Both the position numbers and the translations under genes were made by a program. 34,794 nt of DNA, from IMG/VR virus record IMGVR_UViG_3300022929_000093, positions 1 to 34,794 of that record, one strand, 5' to 3'. The notes below the pieces were generated by a model. The model was not told the DNA's origin. It saw only the letters and a list, made by a program, of their open reading frames with translations, and did no database searches. Every line of letters begins with the position of its first letter. Positions within the stretch are counted from its first letter, which is position 1. Source of the stretch: a virus. This document shows, piece by piece, positions 11,283-27,103 of the stretch.

Positions 11283-12857
11283 TTACACCATTTTTATGTA
11301 GAGTTCGTCGGGGATTTCTGTTGGCTCCCAGGCACCTTCATGGACATGATTAGCTAGAGCCAACGCCATGACCGTGTCGTCGTGACAACCAGCCTCAGCC
11401 TCCATTGCGCCACTTTCGGTCACGATGTAGGTCAGCATTTCTCGGATTGTTGTCTTGTCGTTTAATTCCATCTCACCATCACGCACGGAGGCGCGAAGCT
11501 GGTCGATGATCAAAGGCTTGGTCTTGCTGGTAGTTGTAAAGCCCAATTTGACTGTTTCCCGGTCGGTAATCTTGTCGACCTGAATTTCTGTATAGAAATT
11601 GCCATACGCCATGTCTTTACCCAGCCTTGTGCAGGTCAGGATGCCGTGCGAGTTGTTTTCAACTACGATAAAGGCTTCATTGTAGTAATTTCCTAACGCT
11701 TGGAGGATTTCGGCAAAGAAATCAGGGTGGCAATGGCCTCGCCAAGTCGCGACTTGTCTCTTTTTCGAGTCAAGTACCTGGGCGACTGAGTAGTCTCCAT
11801 TTCGGATGCCCATCGCACTATCTGCGCCAATGACATAAGTCTCTCCTGGGTTATGTGGAATGTAAGTTGTGAGTTCGCCTCGCCTGTTGTTGACGAAGTC
11901 ATCACCTTCGAGGGCCAGACGCTCTTCTACGTCCCTGGTTTCATCCAGGCACTTCATTAGCTGTTCTGGGTTAAAAACAGGGCGTCCGGTTGTAAGGAAA
12001 GCCTCAGAAGGCTCCGCCGGATATTCCTGGCGATATAAATCTATGCCGTTTTGAGCAATCTTCCGGCGTCTGAACATCAGCTGTTCATCATCAAGATCGT
12101 ATTTCTTGACCAAATCTTCTTCGTCGGGCGTCCGTTCAAACTGTTCTGGAACTGGCTCTCGGTACGTTGGGTCAGCGAACCATGGTATAAATACCGGCAC
12201 GAAGCCGTTTGTACCATCTACTGCGCCTTTCCAGAGGTCGTAGTAGATGCCTGTAACACCATTGGCCGTGCTTTCGACAAAGATTGCAGTGCCTTTGGTG
12301 TTTGGTACTGCCTGTGTCAGACCGTTCCAAATATCTTGGGCTGTGCTTTTCTGCCAAAACGCCAACTCACTCGCGTGTACATGGGTCAGGGTTTCACCCC
12401 GTCCGACACTGTCTGAGCCAGCTGTGGCCACGACAAATGAGCTATCCAAGACATCAAATGATAGTTCCCGGCGTGAACTGTATTTTGTGTGTGGCTGTAG
12501 GATTTCCGGCACGTTCTGATGGTAACGCCGGGTCATATCGAACAAGGCTCTCGTCGAGTCGCTATGATGGGTCACAATTAGTGCCTTACACGCTTCTCTT
12601 TGGGAGACTTGGTGATAGAGATAGCCGCCAACATAAGTTGATAGACCCTGTTGCCGGGCTTTAAGAATGATGACACGAACCTTGCCTTCAGTCTTCAGCT
12701 GCTTTTGAACAGCTGCATCAAGGATTTGCTGGGCTGGGTTAAGCTTCAGCTGGGAAATAGCCCCTTCCTTGGTACGGATTTTTAACGCTGCGTTAGCGTA
12801 AAAAGGAAACTCATCATATAGGCGTTTACGGACTTTCTGTAGTTTCGGGTCCATCAT
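11283..12857 (-). CDS. terL: Terminase large subunit
   Basis: The 524-residue protein is the packaging ATPase-nuclease. The Walker A variant KARQQGLST is at residues 66-74. The Walker B/catalytic Glu segment is HASELAFW (E164), and the coupling motif is VESTANG (194-200). The RNase H-like nuclease has D346 in YVIGADSAMG, a middle acid E400 in VVENNSHGI, and D493-D494 in CHDDTVMALA. Its length is typical. The start overlaps the terminase small subunit gene by 32 nt, with tandem ATGs, so translation is probably coupled. The protein drives DNA through the portal encoded next and cuts the concatemer. Confidence 0.93.
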   Translation of the reverse strand: MMDPKLQKVRKRLYDEFPFYANAALKIRTKEGAISQLKLNPAQQILDAAVQKQLKTEGKVRVIILKARQQGLSTYVGGYLYHQVSQREACKALIVTHHSDSTRALFDMTRRYHQNVPEILQPHTKYSSRRELSFDVLDSSFVVATAGSDSVGRGETLTHVHASELAFWQKSTAQDIWNGLTQAVPNTKGTAIFVESTANGVTGIYYDLWKGAVDGTNGFVPVFIPWFADPTYREPVPEQFERTPDEEDLVKKYDLDDEQLMFRRRKIAQNGIDLYRQEYPAEPSEAFLTTGRPVFNPEQLMKCLDETRDVEERLALEGDDFVNNRRGELTTYIPHNPGETYVIGADSAMGIRNGDYSVAQVLDSKKRQVATWRGHCHPDFFAEILQALGNYYNEAFIVVENNSHGILTCTRLGKDMAYGNFYTEIQVDKITDRETVKLGFTTTSKTKPLIIDQLRASVRDGEMELNDKTTIREMLTYIVTESGAMEAEAGCHDDTVMALALANHVHEGAWEPTEIPDELYIKMV

Positions 12858-13314
12858 CTACCAATAAGCTGCTTAGGAACTCTTCGGCTTTGCCGATAGT
12901 CACTTCCTGTTTGGCTGCTGGGCGGGATTTCGTAAAATCTAACACCAATCTAGCGGCTGCTAGGCGTTCCCTGGTCTCGCCAGGCACACGCATGACCTCG
13001 ACCGCAGTGGTCAAAGCCTCTTTGGCGTAGTCGTCTTGGATGTCGTATTTTTCAGTCATAATTTTCACCAGTTGTTGTGCTTCCTTTTTTGCCTCAGCCC
13101 GTAAGGGTTCGATCTGAGACTTTCTGTATCCGTCAGGTGTACCTTTTGGGCGTCCTGGGTTCTTGCGTGGTTTGGTTGACCACTGTCGTCGTAATTCACG
13201 ACCCTCAGGCGTTTCCATGAGGGTCGCGAAGTAATTTTTCTTTGGTGCTTTGTGTGGAGCCTTGCCTTGACCTTTGGTCGAGGGCGATTTGGCCCTCGCT
13301 TTACGCTGGGTCAC
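12826..13314 (-). CDS. Probable terminase small subunit
   Basis: The 162-residue protein is called from its place directly upstream of terL and its layout. A basic N-terminus (about 20% Lys) is followed by KNPGRPKGTPDGYRK (about residues 51-65), an AT-hook-like DNA-binding segment. Helical oligomerisation regions then contain YAKEALTTAVEVMRVPGETR and RLAAARLVLDFTKSRPA. The late segment resembles small terminases of several phages. The start is GTG at 13314, which overlaps the upstream stop as GTGA. AAGGAG lies about 12 nt upstream, somewhat far. It should recognise the packaging site and present DNA to TerL. Confidence 0.75.
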   Translation of the reverse strand: MTQRKARAKSPSTKGQGKAPHKAPKKNYFATLMETPEGRELRRQWSTKPRKNPGRPKGTPDGYRKSQIEPLRAEAKKEAQQLVKIMTEKYDIQDDYAKEALTTAVEVMRVPGETRERLAAARLVLDFTKSRPAAKQEVTIGKAEEFLSSLLVDDGPETTESP

Positions 13315-22698: not shown

Positions 22699-23418
22699 CT
22701 ATGTTGGTTGCGTAACGGCACTGAAGCCAGTTGGGTCGCCTTGGATAAGCGTTGAGCCTTTGTCACTGGCGTTAGGTGAGACCACTCGCCACTGATACCA
22801 ACGATGGCTGGTGCTGGGGTTATTCGTGGCGACTGTGATTATGCCGAAGTTGTACAAAGTTGACGTTTGGGTGATGCTTGTGCAGCCACCGTCACTGTCG
22901 AAGGCGATGGTGAAGAACCTAGCCCCACCGTTTGAATTGTCGTAACCACCGTTCAACTGAAGCACGACATCATTCACTGCTGTTCTAGAAGTGCCGCCAA
23001 ACAGTGTCACACTGGATGGTTGGGCATCCTCGTTCTGGTGCATAGACATATCGATGTCCTGCCCCAGATAGCCTGTCCCTGCTCTGAAGGCAGGTGAATA
23101 GACAGTGAATGGGTTATACAAAAGACTGCCTGAGTAGGCTTGAGGCGTAGCTATACTATTGGCAGAAGTAATACCGAAAGCAGTGTATGTATGTCCTGCG
23201 GAGTAGGTCATCTGCACACGGATATCGCGGGTTACTGTTGCTGTAGTTCCATAGAAATCTGAGAAAGCGATTGCGCCACTTGTTGGGATTGCTGTGTTTC
23301 CAGCCGTGACTATGCCAGCGTCACGGTAGTATTCCGATAGGGCATGGGGTGCTGTTCCACCAAACTCAGCTACAATATCGCCACTGAGGCTGATGACGCC
23401 GGATGATGTGACTGCCAT
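22699..23418 (-). CDS. Tail fibre-like protein
   Basis: The 239-residue protein begins MAVTSSGVISLSGDIVAEFG and continues GTAPHALSEYYRDAG. This SGxISLxDIxxEFGG...SLSEYYR pattern is widespread at the N-termini of phage tail fibre or appendage proteins. The segment IPTSGAIAFSDFYGTTA (about residues 43-59) is of the same type. The rest is beta-rich and ends RWYQWRVVSPNASDKGSTLI. The start overlaps the upstream stop by 1 nt (TAATG). It could form a short appendage or a second fibre next to the tail hub. Confidence 0.7.
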   Translation of the reverse strand: MAVTSSGVISLSGDIVAEFGGTAPHALSEYYRDAGIVTAGNTAIPTSGAIAFSDFYGTTATVTRDIRVQMTYSAGHTYTAFGITSANSIATPQAYSGSLLYNPFTVYSPAFRAGTGYLGQDIDMSMHQNEDAQPSSVTLFGGTSRTAVNDVVLQLNGGYDNSNGGARFFTIAFDSDGGCTSITQTSTLYNFGIITVATNNPSTSHRWYQWRVVSPNASDKGSTLIQGDPTGFSAVTQPT

Positions 23419-23930
23419 TACGGTGAGCCAAAGGCAGTGATGTCAGCGGCAGATGTGACTGCGCCAGTGCTTTGTAGCTTGAATACTGTAGTGCCGTTGT
23501 ACTTGAAGTTCAGGTCGTTATCGCCTGTATCAAGTTCAATAGTCCACTTGGATGCTCCAAAGCGGATAGCGTTGCCGTTGGTGTCTAGTTCAGCAGATAG
23601 CTGGGGTGAAGGGTCGTTGACCAGTTCAGTGCTAATTGCGTCAATTTGGGTCTGGATGGCACTTGTGACGCCACCAAGATAGCCAAACTCCGCAGGTGTG
23701 ACTGACGTTCCCGACAATACATTTAGGTTGGTTGATGTGCCTGTGAAGCCATCTAAAGCATTTAGCTCCGTATGAGTGCTTGTGACTGCTCCGGCTATCG
23801 CTGGGAACGTGGCTTTGATGGTGGACTTGGTAAGACGTAGATGATCATCTGCTTGTGCTAAAGAATCGACTGAGGTTGGGTTTGTGGCGACAAGCCCATC
23901 GATATAGGTAGCTGTTTCTAACGGTGCCAT
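23418..23930 (-). CDS. First late gene: tail fibre/adaptor-like protein
   Basis: The 170-residue protein begins MAPLETATYIDGLVATNPTS and continues VDSLAQADDHLRLTKSTIKA. The IDGLVATNPTSxDxLxxADDHLRLxKxxIKxTFP block is a very common N-terminal module of phage tail fibres that attaches to the tail. The C-terminal part (about residues 110-170) has an ELDTNGNAIRFG-like beta segment, as in fibre domains. The frame is open to 23996, but the ATG at 23930 with AAGGAATACTCATT before it matches the known module start. It is the first gene after the 750-nt gap and so the first late cistron. Confidence 0.78.
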   Translation of the reverse strand: MAPLETATYIDGLVATNPTSVDSLAQADDHLRLTKSTIKATFPAIAGAVTSTHTELNALDGFTGTSTNLNVLSGTSVTPAEFGYLGGVTSAIQTQIDAISTELVNDPSPQLSAELDTNGNAIRFGASKWTIELDTGDNDLNFKYNGTTVFKLQSTGAVTSAADITAFGSP

Positions 23931-24197
23931 AATGAGTATTCCTTGGTTTTTCGGAGGTGGACGCTGCTTTGAAAAGACAGACAACGACAACAACAACCAA
24001 CAACCTTTAGCGGATTTTTGGAATTGATTGATATTGATGGGTATAGGGGGGTCAAATCGCAGGGGATGGAACCAGAAATCTCGTCAACACCTGCTAAGTT
24101 GTTGTAATGAAACAAAGTGTCAGGTGATCGGATGCACGATCCGTTGCCCTTTTGCCCCCTTCTGTTCCAGACATTAGGACATTATGAGAAATTTATT

Positions 24198-24287
24198 GGG
24201 ATGACCTGATTAGTCTTCGTTACAAATCGGGATCGGTGACTTACGTCTACCTTCGTCATCCCTCGAACTGCGAGTCGTGGACTAATC
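24198..24287 (-). ncRNA. Candidate structured RNA, pseudoknot topology
   Basis: GGGATGAC (24198-24205) is complementary to GTCATCCC (24255-24262), and GATTAGTC (24208-24215) to GACTAATC (24280-24287). The two 8-bp helices cross, so they form a pseudoknot. Between them lies a small hairpin GGTGAC-TTAC-GTCtACC (24235-24251) with one bulged base, and another, CTCG-AACTG-CGAG (24262-24274). Transcribed from the minus strand it would be part of the late leader. The strand assignment is by context; the complement folds equally. There is no family match and no covariation evidence. Confidence 0.35.
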
Positions 24288-24535
24288 GTATCTTTGGTTA
24301 TCATCTATATTATTATTAATGATATTACTCTATGTCGCCTTATGTCCCTCATAGACCATACATAACTTCGAAATGAGTTAAGACGGGAATAACATTGATA
24401 ATGGCGTGGATATTGCTATATTAAAATCTGGATGTCGGTTGAGAGCCTGAATAAGGACGGACCCCATCTATGTTGCTAGGAGGGCGTGATAAGGGAGGCA
24501 TTATATCGACCGAGTTTCGTCACGAGTAACATTAA

Positions 24536-24581
24536 GAAGGCCAGTTCAAGCATATAGTCATATAACCGCTTGCTGGCCTTC
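24536..24581. other. Strong long hairpin in the gap
   Basis: GAAGGCCAG (24536-24544) pairs with CTGGCCTTC (24573-24581). Inside, CAAGC (24547-24551) pairs with GCTTG (24568-24572) and ATAT with ATAT around an AGTC loop. Only a 2-nt and a 4-nt bulge interrupt it. No U-run follows on the minus strand; on the plus strand CGCTCTTTTC follows. It may be a second terminator, an RNase III-type processing site or a block to antisense transcription. Confidence 0.6.
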
Positions 24582-24640
24582 GCTCTTTTCTAGCTCATAG
24601 TTACGCATGGCCTATTCGGGCGACACATCTTCTAAAGACG

Positions 24641-24676
24641 AAAAAAAGCCCACCAGCGTAGTCACTGGTAGGCTTT
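24641..24676 (-). terminator. Rho-independent terminator after thyX
   Basis: On the minus strand AAAGCCTACCAG pairs with CTGGTGGGCTTT (24645-24656 with 24665-24676), with one G-T pair and an 8-nt loop, and runs directly into TTTTTTT (24641-24647). It begins 7 nt after the thyX stop codon and closes the replication and nucleotide block. Confidence 0.9.
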
Positions 24677-24682
24677 GCTATT

Positions 24683-25312
24683 CTATGTTTGGCTTAAGGC
24701 AGGCCAGCTGACTGGGAACTTGCTCATGGCCTGTTCCTGTATCATGCGGGCAATCTCTTGCGTTTCTTCTTGGCTATGATGATCGAGGCGTTGGTTGCAC
24801 ACTCTAGCAAATGCATGGAGTGAACCAGACCACCACCATTCAGTCATCATCGTCTGAGGTAAGATCATCCGTGCTTGCTCCGGTGCTACACCTTGCTCGA
24901 TGAGCCTGGTGTAGTTTTTATGAGCTAACAGGTTTGTCTGCTCCAGGATTAGCTTCGGTGTGTTCTGGTCATCAACCTCGCCATGGCTTCCCTGCTTGCT
25001 GTTCTTCGGTCGTCCACGCCAGACAGTCGGGTTGTGGAACTCAGGTGGCTCATCGACGTAGCGACGTGACACCTCGTTCCACGACAGTCCAACCTGGTGC
25101 TTAACCAGCTGCCGGGCGACAAAGATTGGTGCTTTGATCCTGAACTGCAGGAAAGCGTGGGCAAAGGGTGACCAATGCCCATGCGTAGCAAGGTAATGAA
25201 TGAGGCGTTCATCGCTCTCATCCATCTCCATGCTTTCTTTAGCGAATGAGACACGGGCAGCGTTCACGACCGTGAGATCAGAACCAAGACTGTCGATTAG
25301 TTCAACATTCAT
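24683..25312 (-). CDS. thyX: Flavin-dependent thymidylate synthase
   Basis: ThyX makes dTMP from dUMP with FAD, NADPH and methylenetetrahydrofolate. The 209-residue protein begins MNVELIDSLGSDLTVVNAAR. It has HGHWSPFAHAFLQFRIKAPI, and the signature region RQLVKHQVGLSWNEVSRRYV (residues 67-86). A late helix has WWWSGSLHAFARVCNQRLD. The signature differs from the bacterial RHRxxSxNExSxRY form: K-H-Q stands for R-H-R and there is one extra residue before the N-E. I chose the ATG at 25312, which overlaps the upstream stop as ATGA and has GGAG 9 nt upstream, over a TTG at 25327. It is the last gene of its operon. Confidence 0.92.
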   Translation of the reverse strand: MNVELIDSLGSDLTVVNAARVSFAKESMEMDESDERLIHYLATHGHWSPFAHAFLQFRIKAPIFVARQLVKHQVGLSWNEVSRRYVDEPPEFHNPTVWRGRPKNSKQGSHGEVDDQNTPKLILEQTNLLAHKNYTRLIEQGVAPEQARMILPQTMMTEWWWSGSLHAFARVCNQRLDHHSQEETQEIARMIQEQAMSKFPVSWPALSQT

Positions 25313-25473
25313 GCTGTTTTGCTCCAAGGGCAGTCGTATGACCAGCTGTCCTCAGTGCAATCGTAAACAGCTTCGCCATTGCATTTTGAGCAAGAGTAAA
25401 AGTCAAATGCTTCTTGTGTCATGTCCTGCCCACAGCACACTGGTATTCTTTCAAACTCAGTCTCACACCCCAC
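25309..25473 (-). CDS. Small zinc-ribbon protein between reductase and thyX
   Basis: The 54-residue protein (from GTG at 25473) has IPVCCGQDM and YSCSKC, with Cys at 13, 14, 28 and 31, and further Cys at 39 and 48. C-C-G-x-x-M ... C-x2-C is a typical small zinc ribbon. The GTG start is chosen because GGAGG lies 5 nt upstream; ATGs at 25485 and 25509 are alternatives with poorer signals. It overlaps the reductase stop by 11 nt and thyX by 4 nt, so it should be co-expressed with both. It may help deoxynucleotide synthesis, for example as a detached zinc ribbon of the reductase, but this is a guess. Confidence 0.6.
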   Translation of the reverse strand: MGCETEFERIPVCCGQDMTQEAFDFYSCSKCNGEAVYDCTEDSWSYDCPWSKTA

Positions 25474-27103
25474 AGCTGCCTCCATGTCCTGTGATGTCAC
25501 AGATGTCATGCGTCTCAAGGATTTCTTCACCTTGCCTGTTCGAGGCTTCGGAGTAAGGCACTGATGTCAGTGGCTGACCACCACGGCTGCCGTCTGCGTA
25601 GCAAGTAAAGCCCCGCAGCCGGTGAGCGTATTTGGCTAACATTTGAGCAAATGGCTCAACTGTGTCCTCATTGTTCAGCTTGGTTCCCCAGGCTGGCAGG
25701 TTGATTGTCGAACTGATCGACATATCAACGTAATCCTGCACATCAGCCTGGAACTTCACCCGTCTTTCTGGGTCAGCTGCTAGGTCAATCGCACTTTCGA
25801 TTGTCTCAGGATTAGCGCCGTATCGATCGATGAGGTCCTGCGCTGCGCTATCGACAACGTATTGGTAATGCCAGCGTGTACCGCCTTTGAGGTACCTGCG
25901 CTTGTAAGCGACAGCAAAGATCGGCTCGACGCCTGTCGATGTTCCAGCCAGGATGCCTATTGAACCAGTTGGTGCAATAGCCCGATTAGCAACAGGGCGA
26001 CTGACGCTGAGAAAATCAGCAAATTCCTTCGACGCCTTGTCCGAGACAATCTTGTAGACATGTAACCACTTATGTAATTCTGGGGTGACATTGTACTTTT
26101 CTCCTCGTTGGATCAGCCATTCATGCATCCCCATCAAACCGAGGCCCAGACGACGGTTCTTTTCCCGTGTCTTTTTGATGCCTTCGTAAGGCACTTCGCC
26201 TCGGATGGTTCCGCACAGTAGGAACTTTGTCGACAATTCGACGACATCAGCGAACTCACTGATGCTTTCAATGCGTGACAGATTGATCGAGCCAAGGTTG
26301 CAGACGTCGTCTGGATCAGCCGAGGTGACCTCAGTACAGGCGTTGCGTAATGTCTCGTCGTCTTTCATGTAATTGAAGCTGAAGCCCGGCTCAGACGATT
26401 TGAGAGCCTGTTTCATGTTCTCCATGAAGACATCGCCAACTTCACCGGTTGCCCAGTAATTATGCTGCCACTCAGTATCGTAGTTGACGGAAATGTTGGT
26501 CATGTCCATCGGGGCTTTGAAGTTGAAATCAGCCTCTTTTAGCTTTGCCATGGTGGTGTCGCCCACCTGCATCTCATCCCAATTCTTCATGTTCAAGAAA
26601 TCGTGGATGTCGCCATGCTTCCAGTGAAGGCTTGCGTACATGGCGCTGCGCCGTGACCCGCCTTGCATGACATTTCGGCCAATGCCGTTAACCAGTTCCA
26701 TCATTGGTAATGGCCCAGATGCTTCACCACCGGTTCGGCTCAAACGCTTGCCTGAAGGGCGATAGATCGAGTAATCCACGCCGATACCTCCGCCAGACAT
26801 GAGAGCAGATGTGGCCTTGTTAGCCAGCGTTGCCCAGTCTTCACGGTTGTCATTCTCAGCTTTGAGCAAAAAACAATTATTGTAGTATTTTACATCCCGG
26901 CCAGCGTACCAAAGGTAACGACCACCAGGGATGAACTTCATTTCGGTCATGTAGTAGACCAGTTGATCCACCTCAGTTGTCGACATTAGCCCGTCGCAAA
27001 CTTCATGGACCAAGGTAGCAGCTAAAGATGCCCATGTTTCACATCCTTCGTGCCGGTATTTCAAATTGAAGATGTCTTCAGCGAATTTATTTCGAAACGT
27101 CAT
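25463..27103 (-). CDS. Ribonucleotide reductase, probably class II (cobalamin-dependent)
   Basis: The 546-residue protein reduces ribonucleotides to deoxyribonucleotides. Active-site residues can be read from the family pattern: N254, C256 (thiyl radical) and E258 in NACTEV, with the redox pair C77 (YYNNCFLL) and C268 (VCNLGSINLSR). The substrate-phosphate motif PTGSIGILAGTSTGVEP is near residue 365. It lacks the N-terminal ATP-cone. No beta-subunit gene is nearby, which favours the adenosylcobalamin-dependent class II, common in marine phages. The C-terminus has Cys at 535 and 544, presumably for re-reduction. It overlaps the DUF3310 gene by 4 nt (ATGA). It works with thyX and the MazG-like enzyme to supply dNTPs. 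Confidence 0.88.
   Translation of the reverse strand: MTFRNKFAEDIFNLKYRHEGCETWASLAATLVHEVCDGLMSTTEVDQLVYYMTEMKFIPGGRYLWYAGRDVKYYNNCFLLKAENDNREDWATLANKATSALMSGGGIGVDYSIYRPSGKRLSRTGGEASGPLPMMELVNGIGRNVMQGGSRRSAMYASLHWKHGDIHDFLNMKNWDEMQVGDTTMAKLKEADFNFKAPMDMTNISVNYDTEWQHNYWATGEVGDVFMENMKQALKSSEPGFSFNYMKDDETLRNACTEVTSADPDDVCNLGSINLSRIESISEFADVVELSTKFLLCGTIRGEVPYEGIKKTREKNRRLGLGLMGMHEWLIQRGEKYNVTPELHKWLHVYKIVSDKASKEFADFLSVSRPVANRAIAPTGSIGILAGTSTGVEPIFAVAYKRRYLKGGTRWHYQYVVDSAAQDLIDRYGANPETIESAIDLAADPERRVKFQADVQDYVDMSISSTINLPAWGTKLNNEDTVEPFAQMLAKYAHRLRGFTCYADGSRGGQPLTSVPYSEASNRQGEEILETHDICDITGHGGSCGV

Follow-up and report, generated by a model that had tools for sequence, protein, structure and literature searches.

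A conserved non-coding DNA element between the replication and late genes of uncultured marine podoviruses, a candidate packaging site also carried by bacterial chromosomal islands

The window analysed here is a contig of 34,794 nt from an uncultured podovirus (IMG/VR record IMGVR_UViG_3300022929_000093), and all of its recognised genes are on the minus strand. Its right end is the C-terminal part of a T7-like RNA polymerase, inside whose gene the contig stops; the closest polymerase listed among named phages is 35% identical to it. The polymerase is followed by the replication side, including SSB, primase-helicase, MazG, DNA polymerase, exonuclease, ribonucleotide reductase and thyX, and then by a gap. 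The late side beyond the gap encodes tail, ejection, terminase, SU10-type portal, scaffold, SU10-type capsid and fibre proteins. A terminator-like stem with a T run lies directly behind thyX (24645-24676, minus strand). A 9-bp inverted repeat, GAAGGCCAG/CTGGCCTTC, with a T-rich tract is found on the plus strand at 24536-24581, and the gap has no recognised gene on that strand. The features of the gap and its two flanking genes are listed in Table 1.

Table 1. Features in and around the gap between thyX and the first tail gene (window coordinates).
Feature	Position	Strand	Basis or remark
thyX, last gene of the replication block	24683..25255	(-)	precedes the 686-nt early/late gap
10-bp phased direct repeats, CTTAGG-type words, 5' of the element	24233..24362	(-)	weak in the window, strong in relatives
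Crossing helices	24198..24287	no strand	straddle the 5' edge of the conserved element; unconserved in relatives
Whole conserved non-coding element, ~255 bp (TCCCGATTT block to end of GTT run)	~23979..24232	(-)	alignment of relatives, 84 loci
TCCCGATTT block, 5' edge of the element	24224..24232	(-)	invariant in the nearest relatives
Conserved block GGTCATCCCAATAAATTTC, including the 3' arm of helix 1	24188..24206	(-)	alignment of relatives
TAATGTC motif, two copies	24170..24184	(-)	alignment of relatives
Covarying inverted repeat CGGATNNNNNATCCG, fixed half-site spacing	24129..24143	(-)	covariation
ATTACAACAACTTAGC block (family form GATATCAAnGACTTAGC)	24093..24108	(-)	alignment of relatives
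3' core of ~95-100 bp common to chromosomal islands, GGTTCCATC..CCCCCC..TTCCAAAAATCCGCTAAAGG(GTTGTT)n	23979..24073	(-)	80 phage and 21 bacterial copies
Nearly invariant TAAAG at the core centre	24005..24009	(-)	alignments
(GTT)n run, conserved	23980..24004	(-)	alignment; pattern scan with the run matches at least 120 viral contigs
First structural gene downstream of the gap, tail protein (MAPLETATYIDG..)	23418..23933	(-)	PHROG 6465/5795 tail

A first-pass annotation of the gap proposed an RNA pseudoknot at 24198-24287. Its description of the letters holds. Two perfect 8-bp inverted repeats are present, GGGATGAC (24198-24205) with GTCATCCC (24255-24262) as helix 1 and GATTAGTC (24208-24215) with GACTAATC (24280-24287) as helix 2; they do cross each other when the positions are rechecked, and the bulged TTAC hairpin appears in the MFE fold. 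A crossing 8-bp pair arises in 17 of 2000 dinucleotide shuffles of the 686-nt gap (0.85%). The pair is the only one of its kind in the 34.8-kb window, and its rarity is modest, because ~0.4 such pairs are expected over the whole window at the shuffle rate. The stability is ordinary, with folding of 24180-24300 giving z = -0.32 on the plus strand and -1.19 on the minus strand against shuffles. As every recognised gene is encoded on the minus strand, the relevant transcript would be the reverse complement of the strand first read. Conservation of the helices was not found either: among eight relatives ~50% of cells pair, against a shuffled mean of 49%, when the window's own perfect pairs are removed and the cells counted lie outside the window. 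Helices that pair at chance level outside the window do not form a conserved structure, and with ordinary stability as well, a conserved RNA pseudoknot of these two helices was rejected.

On the minus strand, a conserved block (24188..24206) includes the 3' arm of helix 1 (24198-24205). Family-wide, this block has a weak excess of complementarity with the stretch immediately upstream of it (t = -3.3, n = 51), which is only suggestive, ~190 segment pairs having been screened behind this value. The excess is not at the positions of the two 8-bp helices.

The expectation that the early/late gap has a function of its own stood in part, in that a conserved non-coding element exists there, but mostly outside 24198-24287. 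Comparison of the gap with IMG/VR relatives by blastn reveals a patchwork of conserved blocks immediately before the tail gene, running from 24232 to 23979 on the minus strand. A profile model of 172 positions (R1), built from 40 relatives with the window left out, matches the held-out window over 23979-24150 at 105 bits (E about 1e-30, R1 E-values being rough). A pattern for the 3' end of the element with 27 fixed bases matches at least 120 viral contigs in IMG/VR and only two contigs in 85,000 bacterial genomes; a looser second pattern run on IMG/VR returned mostly chance-like matches. One strong R1 copy is present in 14 of 17 viral records searched whole, while one of the others has a marginal match (E 0.006) and two have no match. 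Most of 82 representatives have the tail gene with a MALETGTYI start as the following gene, in the same orientation; in some others another gene intervenes. The blocks of the core keep their register throughout 80 copies from phages and 21 from bacteria, and dyad symmetry around TAAAG is weak in the core alignments. No significant blastn match for the element was obtained in 50,697 named phages, and a search of the literature on marine late promoters or novel phage RNA motifs returned nothing relevant.

Covariation is found in the inverted repeat at 24129-24143, where 82.1% of cells are paired against 64.9 +/- 1.7 in shuffled alignments, and the covariation score is 0.459 against at most 0.182 when the repeat is slid. 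The mismatches in this repeat have no G-U preference (GT+TG 20, AC+CA 18), and 83 of the 84 sequences keep one and the same distance between the half-sites, as a DNA palindrome would. Alignment-wide covariation and own-versus-swapped duplex energies revealed no other helix of comparable strength. The direct repeats upstream have a 10-nt period, with lag-10 identity up to 0.377 against a background of 0.25 (z 3.5 in the window and 10.8 in the relative L096) and 24-fold enrichment of CTTAGG. One spacer between blocks clusters at about 22/33/44 nt. Helical phasing of the other block intervals is borderline or absent, and one group (21 vs 26-27) contradicts it. The lack of G-U preference and the 10-bp phasing of the repeats fit dsDNA better than RNA; together with the spacer clustering they point to a dsDNA element, though some spacers misfit.

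An element that worked as a structured RNA, such as a leader or regulator in the late transcript, would be transcribed within the late leader, and it would account for the conserved blocks with variable spacers, the one covarying hairpin and, by eye, a hairpin near the Shine-Dalgarno sequence in some relatives. We consider it improbable. A single helix is supported, G-T and A-C mismatches are equally common in it, and no Rfam family matches the element even at E up to 10, the lone match being a tRNA gene elsewhere in L108. In addition, what bacterial islands keep is the 3' core alone, and its surroundings there, after integrase genes or tRNAs, are quite different. The pseudoknot proposal is thus unsupported, given ordinary stability, unconserved helices, the lack of an Rfam match and the dsDNA-like character of the part that is conserved. 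As to the roles that had been listed for it (riboregulator, processing signal, replication element), a leader or regulatory RNA is as improbable as just stated, and a replication element is a live rival that is taken up below.

A complete relative of the phage is present in a bacterial chromosome (G080:C1) as a 39.9-kb prophage. Its ends are a 50-bp repeat (384647 and 424515), one copy of which is inside tRNA-Lys, and a tyrosine recombinase (integrase) gene at 423468-424478 adjoins one end. The element is in the middle of this prophage, 21.8 and 18.1 kb from the ends, between the thyX-side genes and the tail gene, and therefore serves something other than integration. Its place resembles that of cos in lambda. 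The reading of the element as attP was rejected, as the prophage is bounded by the tRNA-Lys repeats. A tyrosine recombinase is encoded in 16 of 20 phage records with the element, and where both were located the integrase is far from it (about 12.6 kb in G005 and G016). In the window the contig ends inside the polymerase gene, so that an integrase would not show there. From the recombinase genes and the prophage, the phages carrying the element look temperate.

Copies of the element are also found in bacterial chromosomes. R1 copies occur in 33 of 151 relatives of the genome G001 (E up to 1e-6), with up to 11 per genome, and in one of 148 genomes of an unrelated bacterial group; the host-type group is described only by kinship to a proteobacterial MAG. 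Weak R1 matches at L454-L456 are in a genome (G177) of an unrelated bacterial group. The island copies keep the 3' core (GGTnCCAT, CCCCC, TTTCAAAA, GnTAAAG and the GTT run) in the phage register and with the same block spacing; the 5' half of the element and the phased repeats are absent from them. In seven of the twenty best loci (L398/L404, L400, L402, L405, L409, L413 and L417) the copy is directly or within ~600 bp behind an integrase gene, and other copies lie beside tRNA-Pro, -Met or -Leu (L416, L418, L420, L432 and L437). Integrase-bearing islands at specific chromosomal sites do, then, hold a copy of the phage site.

Some islands carry two core copies, the second being preceded in L420 and L417 by an integrase gene fragment. 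Fragments of the tRNA-Leu 3' end at 265, 5370 and 12164 in L427 suggest tandem islands bordered by the tRNA core, borders having been worked out for few islands overall. The islands are small, and their cargo includes, for example, DUF1501/DUF1800, an enoyl-CoA hydratase-like gene, HAD hydrolase and glutaredoxin; several of these genes are presumably what we call them, the names having been assigned by reading of the sequence. No known packaging or capsid-hijack gene was found in the islands examined. Two loci of G120 (L425 and L426) are tandem arrays in which the core occurs four to five times, along with 600-bp segments that recur and with metabolic cargo, in an integron-like layout. In L401 (G151, 1501-1859) part of an SU10-type portal gene comes immediately after a core copy; this locus may be what remains of a prophage, or it may be a satellite.

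These arrangements raise the alternative that the element is an att or cassette site of a tyrosine recombinase at which islands and phages swap cargo, much as integron cassettes do. Copies immediately 3' of integrase genes that flank cargo in direct repeat, with integrase 3' fragments included, are in its favour, as are the tandem arrays in G120, and integron attI/attC sites are likewise arrays of ~100-bp sites with cargo genes between them, beside a tyrosine recombinase. However, the core is without the RYYYAAC/GTTRRRY boxes in the alignments, and the integron R' box GTTRRRY is unmatched, with a conserved GnTAAAG instead. The same site is single in the phages, far from the integrase and with no cassette between two copies, and in the G080 prophage it lies between, not at, the tRNA-Lys repeats. 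The island borders in L427 look like tRNA-Leu 3' fragments, not like the element. A recombination site is therefore doubtful, and we give it a low probability.

A site that is present once per phage genome, away from the integrase, and is kept by integrase-bearing islands is most simply explained by a phage function on which the islands also draw. Of such functions packaging is the best known, and the best reading is that it would be the one borrowed here. We put at roughly 0.45 the probability that the element is a cis-acting phage dsDNA site, most likely the packaging start, which is also carried by islands that may be satellites. As would suit a packaging site, the element is non-coding, occurs once per phage genome and is internal in the prophage. 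It would be a dsDNA site of temperate marine podoviruses with a T7-like RNA polymerase, an SU10-type portal and capsid, and a tyrosine integrase elsewhere in the genome. The terminase would recognise the element as the start of DNA packaging, the 10-bp phased repeats being a possible binding array for the small terminase, and the islands, as putative phage satellites, would keep the core in order to be packaged by the phage. The candidate gene for the small terminase is the one before TerL (12826-13314), for which no family match was found. Against the packaging reading stand the lack of known packaging or capsid-hijack genes in the islands examined, the weak dyad around TAAAG and the ~10 kb between the site and the terminase genes.

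Contig ends were considered as traces of packaging. Thirteen contigs have an end in the 600 nt on the upstream side of the core, against 5.2 expected; this excess is weak, because the repeat zone itself breaks assemblies, and the ends are scattered over 51-569 nt. In three phage contigs (G005, G009 and G016) the two ends overlap, which suggests that they were assembled as circles and broken away from the element; this argues against a unique cos end. Unique cos ends were not seen among the contig ends.

The live rival to packaging is a phage replication origin, in which the phased repeats would bind an initiator, the (GTT)n run and AT-rich blocks would open or prime, and the phage replisome would copy the islands. 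This is possible and distinctly less probable than packaging. The 10-bp repeats are iteron-like, and no obvious replication gene was found in the islands examined, which would suit islands copied by a phage. Moreover, coding-strand GC skew flips at the element (window 24000-25500), with a skew drop in 22 of 23 loci tested; at silent sites the skew steps there from about -0.06 in the replication genes to about -0.3 in the late genes, with all genes on one strand. However, the step could reflect the codons favoured by highly expressed late genes, no initiator gene was identified, and the island copies are without the phased repeats that an initiator would bind.

A further possibility, that the element is merely a promoter region at which the phage RNA polymerase starts late transcription, is very unlikely. 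The unique large gap before the late operon and CTATAG-like words among the repeats agree with it, but it leaves island copies without late genes unexplained, and the element is too long and too elaborate for the promoter of a single-subunit polymerase. The RNA, att-site and pure promoter readings all explain less than packaging or an origin.

Packaging sites borrowed by satellites are known from several systems. The cos SaPIs, EcCICFT073 and P4 (with P2 cos) carry the cos of the helper (PMC6092414, PMC5052747), and EcCICFT073, which has two cos sites, carries the helper cosN without the helper's cosB (PMC6092414). The islands described here are similar to satellites with helper cos or pac in that a short non-coding phage site is copied into integrase-bearing islands, with part of it kept and sometimes with two copies. 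The likeness is one of layout, with no sequence kinship seen and with the function inferred. The phage also differs in having a T7-like RNA polymerase and SU10-type structural genes, and in that the site is ~10 kb from the terminase genes. The islands here also recall PICMI, VEIMEs and tycheposons, marine integrative islands that are likewise small, hold few genes and encode a tyrosine recombinase (PMC10803314); VEIMEs and tycheposons are likened to them by description, not by sequence. PICMI integrate at fis in Vibrionaceae, and no cos or pac site was found there (PMC10803314), whereas the islands here occupy several different tRNA sites in a separate group of bacteria and contain the phage core.

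The element may thus be an undescribed packaging (or replication) signal that a large lineage of uncultured temperate marine podoviruses shares with a widespread family of islands carrying metabolic cargo. In that case helper and satellite would be matched by sequence alone, and the phages would spread the cargo through the signal; we regard this wider picture as tentative, somewhat short of even odds. The locus also illustrates that a DNA element can show itself first by an edge that looks like an RNA pseudoknot. If the wider picture is true, a packaging or replication signal would be added for a phage group in which no cultured member was found, and there would be a sequence handle on which islands of the ocean move with which uncultured phages, a link that is otherwise hard to make without culture.
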